Origin: Herbiconiux moechotypicola
Lineage (GTDB): Bacteria > Actinomycetota > Actinomycetes > Actinomycetales > Microbacteriaceae
Reading direction: 5' to 3'
NCBI RefSeq assembly: GCF_024979255.1
Contig: NZ_JANLCN010000006.1
Span: 186,001-250,000 of the forward strand
DNA: 64,000 nucleotides
A program made the position numbers and the translations under genes. How positions within the stretch are numbered: the first letter of the stretch is position 1; every line of letters starts with the position of its first letter. Below the pieces are notes generated by a model that worked only from the letters and a program-made list of their open reading frames with translations, was not told where the DNA came from and did not search any database. Positions 61,763 to 63,815 of this stretch are shown one piece after another.

Positions 61763-62401
61763 GTGCTGCGCCTGCTCGTGGCTACCGCGGCCGCGGTGGC
61801 GCTGGTGTTCGACTACGACTACGTGCTGGGGTTCAGCACCTTCTCCACCGAGAACTACTTCAGCTACTTCACCTTCCAGAGCAACCTCCTCAACGTGGTG
61901 GTGCTCGGCTCGTCGGGCATCCTCCTGCTCTCGGGTCACACGGTGGGCCGCATCCTCGTGAGCGTGCGGGCGATGGCCACCTGCTACGTCCTGGTATCCG
62001 GGATCGTGTTCGCGCTCATCGTCTCGCAGGCGGGGAGCCATCACTACCGCATCGAGGTGCCGTGGACGAGTCAGCTGCTGCACTTCTACCTGCCCGTCGT
62101 GGTGGTGGCCGACTGGCTGGTGGGCGTGGGGAGGGTGCCACTGCGCTGGCGGGTCGTGCCTCTCGTGCTCGTGTTCCCCGTGGTCTGGGGCGTCTTCACG
62201 CTCATCCGGGGCTCGATCGTGGGATGGTACCCCTACTTCTTTCTCGACCCCGCCCAGGTGAGCGGGCCGGGGGAGTTCGCCCTCTACTGCGGAATCGCGC
62301 TCGGGCTGTTCGCCTCCATCACGGCTGGACTGGTGTGGGCGTCGAGGTGGCGATCAGGGACTCGTCCACGAAGGGTTCGAGCGTCTGCAGCGCGGCGCTG
62401 A
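61763..62401 (+). CDS. Pr6Pr-family membrane protein
   Basis: A protein of about 212 residues with six membrane segments; FSYFTFQSNLLNVVVL, then MATCYVLVSGIVFALI, LLHFYLPVVVVADW and VWGVFTLIRGSIVGWYPYFFLDP, match the Pr6Pr (FAR-17a/AIG1-like) family. The start is puzzling: AGGAGG at 61722-61727 is followed by ATC and GTT but no ATG/GTG/TTG until GTG 61763, 35 bases on. The 3' end overlaps the convergent amine oxidase gene by 83 bp. Function unknown. Confidence 0.72.
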   Translation: MLRLLVATAAAVALVFDYDYVLGFSTFSTENYFSYFTFQSNLLNVVVLGSSGILLLSGHTVGRILVSVRAMATCYVLVSGIVFALIVSQAGSHHYRIEVPWTSQLLHFYLPVVVVADWLVGVGRVPLRWRVVPLVLVFPVVWGVFTLIRGSIVGWYPYFFLDPAQVSGPGEFALYCGIALGLFASITAGLVWASRWRSGTRPRRVRASAARR

Positions 62402-63815
62402 CGAACTCCGCGTCGCCCTGGGTCGCGACCGTGCCCACCGCATCCGCCGCCGTGAGCCCCACGAGCACGGGCTGCCCGGTGGCGGGGAGCAGGTTGACCC
62501 ACTCGCTCACCACGGAGGTGTCTCCGAGCACCGAGAGCACCGTCGCATCGGCCGACCAGAAGGGCGTGTCGAACCGCAGCCAGAGCTGCTCGAGGGTGCC
62601 CATGCCGAGCGATTCCAGCGCGCCGGTCGTCACCTCGGGCAGCGGGGGATCGAACTCGATGGTGCCGGCCTGCAGCACGCCGAGCGGCACCGTCACCACC
62701 ACGCGGTCGACCGAGAGCGACTCGCCGGTGCCGAAGCGGAGGCTCACGCCCTCGTCGTCGTAGCCGACGCGCACGACCGTCGCGCCGAGCAGGACGTCGA
62801 GGCCGTCGAGCGCGTCCGACACGACGGTGCCGAGGCCTCCCACCACGAGGCGCTGCTCGGCGGGGTCGATGCCCGGCGCTCCGCGCTCGAGTCCGTAAGC
62901 GGCCGAGAGGCGGAAGGCGCCGGCCCCGTACGCGGTGGCGACGAAGGTGTCGAGGTAGTGCGTGAGGAGCTCGGCCTGGGTGGGCGCGGTGGGCGCGGTG
63001 TCGGATGTCGTCGTCGAGGTCGCGGATGCTGCGCGCGTGGCGGTCGCCGAGGCCGAGGCGGCACCCGACTCGGCGAGGGCGGCGGCCAGCGAGATGTCGG
63101 GCGAGCCGGTGCGCGCCCAGTCGGTGGCCGCGGTCACGGCGTCGGCCGGAGCATCCGAGCCGGGCACCACCGTGCCCCCCGCGGTGCGGATCTCGCTCGT
63201 GGAATCGAGACCGATGCTGTCCACCCCCGAGCTGCGCAGCGCCGAGAGCGCGTCGAGCCCGACCGTCGCCGCGCCCAGTTCGACCGGGAACGCCCAGCCG
63301 TCGGGCTGACGGGTGTCGATCCTTCCGCCGAGCCGATCGCGGGCTTCGATCACCACCACGTCGAAGCCCGCGTCGGTGAGCGCCCGGGCCGCGGTCGCAC
63401 CGGCCAGACCCGCCCCCACCACCGCGATGCGCTCGCCCGGCGCCGCGACGGCCGCCACGCGGTCGGCCGCGCTCTCACCCGACTGTGCGGCACCCCGCAG
63501 GGTGCCGGGGAACTCGCTGGAGGTCGCCTCGCCGGCCAGAAGCACCCGGCCGCCCACCGTCTCCCGCAGCGTCGCCCGGTCGCCGGGGCCGCCTCCCGCC
63601 GGGATCATGCTGAACGAGCCCAGCGAGTACGGATCCGTCGACCAGGCGCTGCGCACGAACGCCGCCGGTGCGGGCACGCGCCCGGGCACCGTCGTGGGCG
63701 TGGGCGTGGGCGTGGGTGCGGGCGGCGTGGGAACGCACCCCGACAGAGTGCCGAGCGCGGCGAGTGACAGGGCGGAGAGCGCCCCGCTGAGAAAGACGCG
63801 TCGCTCGATGTCCAC
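62319..63815 (-). CDS. Tat-lipoprotein flavin amine oxidase with permuted domain order
   Basis: A 498-residue exported flavoenzyme. ERRVFLSG and the lipobox LSGC (Cys27) mark a Tat lipoprotein signal, followed by a Pro/Thr linker. Residues about 53-120 (AWSTDPYSLGSFSMIPAGG, GGRVLLAGEATSSEFPGT, LRGAAQSGESAADRV) are what normally forms the C-terminus of monoamine/polyamine oxidases. Residues about 129-170 (IAVVGAGLAGATAARAL, VVIEARDRLGGRIDT) are the usual N-terminal FAD motif. The protein then ends just where the usual C-terminal part would begin. So the chain looks circularly permuted. Substrate unknown; it converges with the Pr6Pr-like gene. Confidence 0.85.
   Translation of the reverse strand: MDIERRVFLSGALSALSLAALGTLSGCVPTPPAPTPTPTPTTVPGRVPAPAAFVRSAWSTDPYSLGSFSMIPAGGGPGDRATLRETVGGRVLLAGEATSSEFPGTLRGAAQSGESAADRVAAVAAPGERIAVVGAGLAGATAARALTDAGFDVVVIEARDRLGGRIDTRQPDGWAFPVELGAATVGLDALSALRSSGVDSIGLDSTSEIRTAGGTVVPGSDAPADAVTAATDWARTGSPDISLAAALAESGAASASATATRAASATSTTTSDTAPTAPTQAELLTHYLDTFVATAYGAGAFRLSAAYGLERGAPGIDPAEQRLVVGGLGTVVSDALDGLDVLLGATVVRVGYDDEGVSLRFGTGESLSVDRVVVTVPLGVLQAGTIEFDPPLPEVTTGALESLGMGTLEQLWLRFDTPFWSADATVLSVLGDTSVVSEWVNLLPATGQPVLVGLTAADAVGTVATQGDAEFVSAALQTLEPFVDESLIATSTPTPVQP

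Follow-up and report, generated by a model that had tools for sequence, protein, structure and literature searches.

LSD2/KDM1B and LSD1/KDM1A, flavoenzymes of the fold shared by monoamine oxidase (MAO), LSD1 and polyamine oxidase, are the best sequence and structure matches of P0001, our label for a 498-residue protein encoded on the minus strand of a 64,000-nucleotide stretch of Herbiconiux moechotypicola DNA (contig NZ_JANLCN010000006.1, positions 186,001 to 250,000; hereafter the window). Unlike LSD1 and LSD2, P0001 carries the blocks of this fold in rotated order, has Gln410 and Phe68 in place of a lysine and a tyrosine, and begins with a lipoprotein signal of the twin-arginine translocation (Tat) type. 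Maize polyamine oxidase (1b37) and a bacterial monoamine oxidase (8p84), both at 24–25% identity, have chains that continue beyond the aligned core, at the point where P0001 ends. NicA2-type nicotine dehydrogenases belong to the same superfamily and pass electrons to cytochrome c, and may serve as a model for P0001; the ancestors studied have the lysine, with a cytochrome c gene adjacent, and the passages describing them do not mention a permutation (PMC12272882). Among flavin adenine dinucleotide (FAD) enzymes, the passages we draw on describe a natural permutation, accompanied by a change of function, between the PutA proline dehydrogenase barrel and MTHFR (PMC3779223, PMC1959231), which have a TIM-barrel fold unrelated to the amine oxidases. 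They also describe permuted FAD Rossmann sheets in MAO and electron transfer flavoprotein (PMC2916828), which are distant folds and not a permutant within one family, and circularly permuted LucY/MurB (PMC4408115), an FAD protein of the MurB family but a laboratory construct. Full-text searches of the open-access literature on permutation turned up no natural example within the flavin amine oxidase family, which, with subscription papers and preprints outside their scope, is no proof of absence. We consider it likely that P0001 is such a natural permutant of the MAO/LSD1/polyamine oxidase fold, anchored by lipid after Tat export and remodelled in its chemistry.

The order of the conserved motifs makes the rearrangement visible. 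Along the chain, W58-S-T-D-P-Y, L93-A-G-E-A-T-S and P103-G-T-L-R-G-A come before GERIAVVGAGLAG (G134-A-G-L-A-G) and E157-A-R-D-R-L-G-G-R, just as an earlier sequence-only reading of the window had described, with the closing FAD block ahead of GAGLAG/EARDRLGGR. That reading also had the coordinates and strand of the open reading frame (ORF) right; its order of segments stands, and its residue limits are amended here to 46–122 for the moved block and 127 to about 488 for the core. The parts of the gene are as follows.

62319..63815, minus strand: coding sequence of the permuted FAD amine-oxidase-fold protein P0001 (498 aa; start codon GTG, with 62319 as the last base of the stop codon; PF01593, 191.3 bits)
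63735..63815, minus strand: residues 1–27, predicted Tat-type lipoprotein signal (ERRVFLSG...LSGC) with Arg5-Arg6 and lipobox Cys27 (sequence; 41/41 aligned permuted sequences; regular expression, 50/54)
63681..63734, minus strand: residues 28–45, Pro/Thr-rich tether from the lipid anchor to the fold (sequence; low predicted local distance difference test score, pLDDT, to about residue 43)
63450..63680, minus strand: residues 46–122, canonical C-terminal block (profile 368–442), here N-terminal (Pfam; LSD2 chain 699–775; block profile)
63435..63449, minus strand: residues 123–127, new joint between the formerly C-terminal helix and the first strand that binds FAD (gaps between block matches; model)
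63231..63434, minus strand: residues 128–195, FAD-binding Rossmann unit with GAGLAG, Glu157 and GGR165 (NAD_binding_8 and Amino_oxidase; key positions in 41/41)
62799..63230, minus strand: residues 196–339, variable region on the substrate side, with residues 260–273 as an insert particular to this species (alignment A1; low pLDDT at 255–316)
62352..62798, minus strand: residues 340–488, rest of the core, after which the moved block comes next in canonical enzymes (LSD2 alignment; block profiles; VIA alignment)
62586..62588, minus strand: codon of Gln410, the counterpart of the flavin-N5 lysine (alignments)
63612..63614, minus strand: codon of Phe68, the counterpart of the aromatic-cage tyrosine (alignments)

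The insert, 14 residues rich in Ala, Ser and Thr (62997–63038), has no counterpart in any of the 11 relatives aligned in A1.

A Pfam search of the host's own genome returns two separate significant Amino_oxidase matches within the one open frame, an upstream match to profile positions 368–442 (58.2 bits, E 2.0e-15) and a match of residues 137–484 to positions 1–366 (140.4 bits, E 1.1e-40), and the motif order is therefore far beyond chance. Four other loci of this genome match the full profile in standard order (1–443, 2–443, 1–443 and 3–443). With a PF01593 score of 191.3 bits, against a curated cut-off of 19.8, P0001 belongs to the family; it does not follow the family's standard order, in which the Rossmann unit is first and the closing FAD block last, and its own order of blocks, C-N-M, makes it a permuted variant. 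No NCBIfam model scores above its curated cut-off among the 25 listed of 69 matched. When residues 127–498 are placed ahead of 50–126, the Pfam score rises from the native 191.3 to 202.8 bits, a gain of 11.5 bits, in a single match over positions 1–442 of 443. Among solved structures the best phmmer match is LSD2, in three pieces that run along it in the order query 128–166, 321–484 and then 46–122. The cut relative to LSD2 is sharp: query residue 484 lies at chain position 696 and query residue 46 at 699, leaving two LSD2 residues unmatched. As such, each part of the canonical domain is present once, rotated, with the cut at one place.

The relatives of P0001 respond to reordering as well. 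A hidden Markov model (HMM) built from 20 sequences of standard order was applied to native and reordered sequences; reordering raises the score of all 54 permuted sequences (median +15.4 bits), and the 20 standard sequences, which are also those the HMM was trained on, all score lower after being permuted. The gap between the block matches is 5–10 residues in the 54 permuted sequences. Pfam, the LSD2 alignment, the block HMMs and the reordering scores together support the circular permutation that the sequence-only reading had proposed. The gain in profile score on reordering, which that reading had suggested checking, is there, and the chain stops, as it had noted, where the usual last block should begin, which the LSD2 alignment places between residues 484 and 46. 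That P0001 is a permuted amine-oxidase fold is, on these comparisons, close to certain.

In the structure model of P0001, a helix at residues 106–123 leads into a strand at 129–133 with the joint modelled at high confidence, which fits the idea that the two ends of the canonical chain lie near each other. The VIA alignment of the model ends at residue 488, equivalent to LSD1 740 and LSD2 747 in the entries' own numbering. The sequence shows that ~76 residues from the end of the canonical chain now lead it, joined by a linker of 5–10 residues to the first Rossmann strand. In the mechanism we propose, P0001 would fold around FAD in the cytoplasm, cross the membrane in folded form by the Tat pathway and be lipidated at Cys27, so as to sit on the outer face of the membrane held by its Pro/Thr-rich tether, where it may hand electrons to an acceptor other than O2 or take a different substrate.

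The permuted form is widespread in Actinomycetota. In a host-family sample of 199 Microbacteriaceae genomes queried with P0001, 82 have a match at E <= 1e-20 and 61 carry the permuted order (56 as one-row and 5 as two-piece matches, counted by hand as matches running from query position <= 5 to >= 425, with G012, G099 and G108 excluded for fragments or odd coverage), so the same order does recur in many other Microbacteriaceae, where the sequence-only reading had suggested looking for it. Among the named relatives, Herbiconiux ginsengi, Microbacterium stercoris, M. esteraromaticum, a Salinibacterium sp. and a Frondihabitans sp. match the window's order; G093, a genome from the host's own genus, gives no match in the E <= 1e-20 search. 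The three block HMMs (C, N and M), run on the ORFs of 94 loci with duplicates included, give C-N-M in 60 ORFs, CNMM in one and N-M-C in 20; removal of duplicate loci leaves 54 permuted and 20 standard sequences. Twenty further loci comprise 12 permuted sequences, 7 standard ones and one C-N fragment, bringing the permuted collection to 66 sequences, 65 of them distinct (L049 and L058 are identical). Beyond the host family (f1), permuted sequences occur in 12 actinomycetotal families, namely f15 and f16 of the host order, f21, f105, f112, f116, f119 and f121 of the host class, and f37, f45, f47 and f86 of the host phylum, with a fragment in f50. A pattern scan of contigs yields 15 loci, among which three are short matches and another, L053, whose phylum is not stated, shows the standard order; plasmids yield five partial matches.

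Export appears to accompany most of these proteins. Arg5, Arg6 and Cys27 are present in 41/41 aligned permuted sequences, the window's included, in agreement with the exported, lipid-anchored protein of the sequence-only reading; the twin arginines are partly selected for, since start codons were chosen near a twin arginine, which does not apply to Cys27. A regular expression for a Tat signal plus lipobox, which misses Pro-containing lipoboxes such as that of the standard-order L067, matches 50 of the 54 permuted sequences and 4 of the 20 standard ones. By eye, 11 of the later 12 permuted sequences have a Tat-like N-terminus and one (L096) has none visible. Judged from its N-terminus, P0001 is very probably a Tat lipoprotein. 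The four permuted sequences without the pattern form clade B (L087–L090), whose proteins are probably cytosolic. These divergent permuted members keep the lysine, have Trp at the cage place and carry Met at the place of Thr105. Lipid anchoring as the cause of the permutation is weakened as an explanation by clade B, which has no signal, and by Tat-like N-termini that to the eye have no obvious lipobox (for example L097, L100, L103 and L106).

The trees, built from reordered sequences, are compatible with anything from one origin of the permutation to three. The first has 74 rows; the other two rest on smaller selections of 38 and 53 rows, which lack 7 standard rows and L049 and represent the Microbacteriaceae clade by 16 and 12 of its 44 rows. 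That the chain was permuted independently two or three times at one place, in the main clade, in the cytosolic clade B and in L065/L076, is a serious contender, if a little short of an even one. The fewest changes of block order on the three trees, 3, 3 and 2 for 74, 38 and 53 rows, speak for repeated events, as does the 38-row tree, where permuted rows fall on one side of a branch in 0/200 bootstrap trees (0%) and clade B joins the standard rows L001, L072 and L077 with support 94/90. A single permuted clade, however, is not rejected on any of the trees (p-AU, the p-value of the approximately unbiased test, 0.336 for 74 rows, 0.242 for 38 and 0.315 for 53), the three order changes may be one gain and two losses, and on the 53-row tree, where the changes drop to 2, clade B moves to the permuted L065 and L076 (support 86). 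None of the 100 ORFs with all three blocks (81 + 19, duplicates included) has the order C-N-M-C of a duplication intermediate; with no ORF carrying the block at both ends, the origin by duplication and loss suggested in the sequence-only reading stays a guess.

The LSD2 alignment sets Gln410 opposite a lysine and Phe68 opposite a tyrosine; on our reading of the motif these are the places of the flavin-N5 lysine and the cage tyrosine, in line with the description of Lys661 and Tyr761 of LSD1 (PMC3184146). A lysine bridging to flavin N5 is reported in nearly all family members, and relatives using cytochrome c are described in the same source (PMC12272882). The lysine is present in 19/20 standard sequences and in 7/7 of the later set, and in 20/22 permuted sequences outside the Microbacteriaceae clade (10/10 + 10/12). 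Within that clade of 44 permuted sequences, which includes L044 and L050 although their records are not named Microbacteriaceae, it is present in 9; the other 35 have Thr, Gln, Val, Arg, Ser, Ala or Leu there, Gln410 in the window. The cage place follows a similar course, with Tyr in 20/20 standard sequences (Tyr 4 and Phe 3 of 7 in the later set), Tyr in 18 and Trp in 4 of the 22 permuted sequences outside the clade, and Tyr in 2 and Phe in 14 of the 44 within it, where Phe68 of the window is still aromatic. The residues of the FAD motifs (Gly134, 136 and 139, Glu157, Gly163-164, Arg165, Gly95, Glu96, Thr105, Gly108 and Ala109) are all present in 41/41 aligned permuted sequences, as is Asn441, and Thr105, Glu96, Trp420 and an acidic residue at 409 are conserved in 44/44 clade sequences. 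Two side observations concern these sets: Arg takes the place of the lysine in the permuted L098 and L104, and L044, from a record named Corynebacterium-like bacterium B27, groups with Herbiconiux, so that its organism label looks doubtful.

With Gln410 at the lysine place and Phe68 at that of the cage tyrosine, amine oxidase activity of P0001 is doubtful; of the "oxidase" named in the sequence-only reading, the amine-oxidase fold stands and the oxidase activity comes into question. Since the Microbacteriaceae clade keeps the FAD motifs and mostly loses the lysine and the tyrosine, the most likely reading of P0001 is an FAD oxidoreductase that has been remodelled, as opposed to an amine oxidase driven by O2. 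We infer a changed acceptor or substrate in the clade as a whole, and for P0001 itself we lean, with some reserve, towards changed chemistry. For the divergent permuted members, in which the lysine and an aromatic at the cage place are kept, amine oxidase or dehydrogenase activity is probable.

P0001 could instead be an ordinary extracytoplasmic amine oxidase that happens to be permuted, with the permutation neutral, O2 in use, and Gln410 and Phe68 tolerated. Permuted sequences outside the Microbacteriaceae clade would agree with this, retaining the lysine in 20/22 and an aromatic in 22/22, and a CBAH amide hydrolase ahead of the permuted frame at two loci (L097 and L100) would fit release of an amine and then its oxidation; we nonetheless hold it unlikely, as 35/44 clade sequences are without the lysine and just 2/44 have the cage tyrosine, though the FAD motifs stay. 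Less probable again is a non-catalytic FAD-binding lipoprotein, a sensor or a structural component left after decay of the active site, which would account for both active-site positions being variable in the clade while the FAD motifs are invariant. The acidic residue at 409, Thr105 and Trp420 (44/44) and Asn441 (41/41) suggest a retained pocket, and the low ratio of nonsynonymous to synonymous substitution (dN/dS ~0.08 to 0.37 across nine pairs, NG86) speaks against a decayed protein. Finally, that a frameshift, a mis-assembly or a chance order of motifs explains P0001 is barely conceivable, given the permuted order in 61/199 host-family genomes, single-contig ones included, the position of the window in the interior of a 303,930-base contig, and the low dN/dS. 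A closing block lost downstream through a frameshift is rejected, as the DNA beyond the stop codon encodes another protein, of the Pr6Pr family, and the one closing FAD block listed in the window by the own-genome Pfam search (E <= 0.001) has no second copy there.

61763..62401, plus strand: membrane protein of the Pr6Pr family, convergent neighbour (NF038065, 118.9 bits), overlapping the 3' end of the P0001 gene by 83 bases

Several points weigh against a permuted, lipid-anchored and remodelled enzyme. Nine of the 44 clade sequences retain the lysine, and a protein without it need not have lost the ability to oxidise amines. No redox partner is found among the named neighbours, the surroundings as a whole not being annotated. 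Clade B, permuted without a signal in 4/54 sequences, indicates that export is not tied to the permutation. The structural match, made with a sequential aligner, covers about residues 118–491 and leaves the moved block outside the superposition. The mean pLDDT of the model is 68.1; residues 61–80, within the moved block, average ~60–63, and residues 255–316 fall below 50.

More tentatively, and with the balance slightly against it, an old permutation in one or a few events may stand at the root of a lineage of actinobacterial proteins, most of them exported by Tat, in which the Microbacteriaceae members would later have become a new class of extracytoplasmic FAD enzymes that do without the N5 lysine and use another substrate or electron acceptor. 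With a permuted branch present in many actinobacterial families, nature offers a way to learn which connections of the chain are required by the amine oxidase fold, and whether a Tat lipid anchor is more easily carried on the new N-terminus; a clade that keeps the FAD motifs and drops the lysine could show whether this residue and the use of oxygen go together. Profile searches label such proteins amine oxidases, revealing neither the permutation nor the loss of the lysine.

The Pr6Pr gene adjoins the 3' end of the permuted gene in 43/44 Microbacteriaceae-clade sequences, convergently in 42 of these 43; the remaining one, L029, has 31 bases of flank. It lies beside the gene in 0/10 other permuted sequences of that set, one of which has 873 bases of flank. 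Pr6Pr matches occur in 168/199 host-family genomes, often several in each, so that a coupling to the permuted gene is unproven; set against this, the 43/44 adjacency does not make Pr6Pr a specific partner and speaks for a locus passed on by descent more than for an established partnership. Pr6Pr is named in no paper found in the open-access literature. The neighbours of clade B genes, considered as a clue to function, are a cutinase, a GH42 beta-galactosidase, DUF2332 (L087) and an aldo/keto reductase (L090), and share no theme. Among nine neighbours scanned at other permuted loci, those of L098 and L099 are unrelated, one has no family and one is a fused permease/monooxygenase frame; an alpha/beta hydrolase lies downstream at L102 and upstream at L103. 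At L097:2847-5417 and L100:4039-6564, the permuted frame lies immediately behind the stop codon of the CBAH amide hydrolase gene on the same strand, and the two genes could form a hydrolyse-then-oxidise pair.
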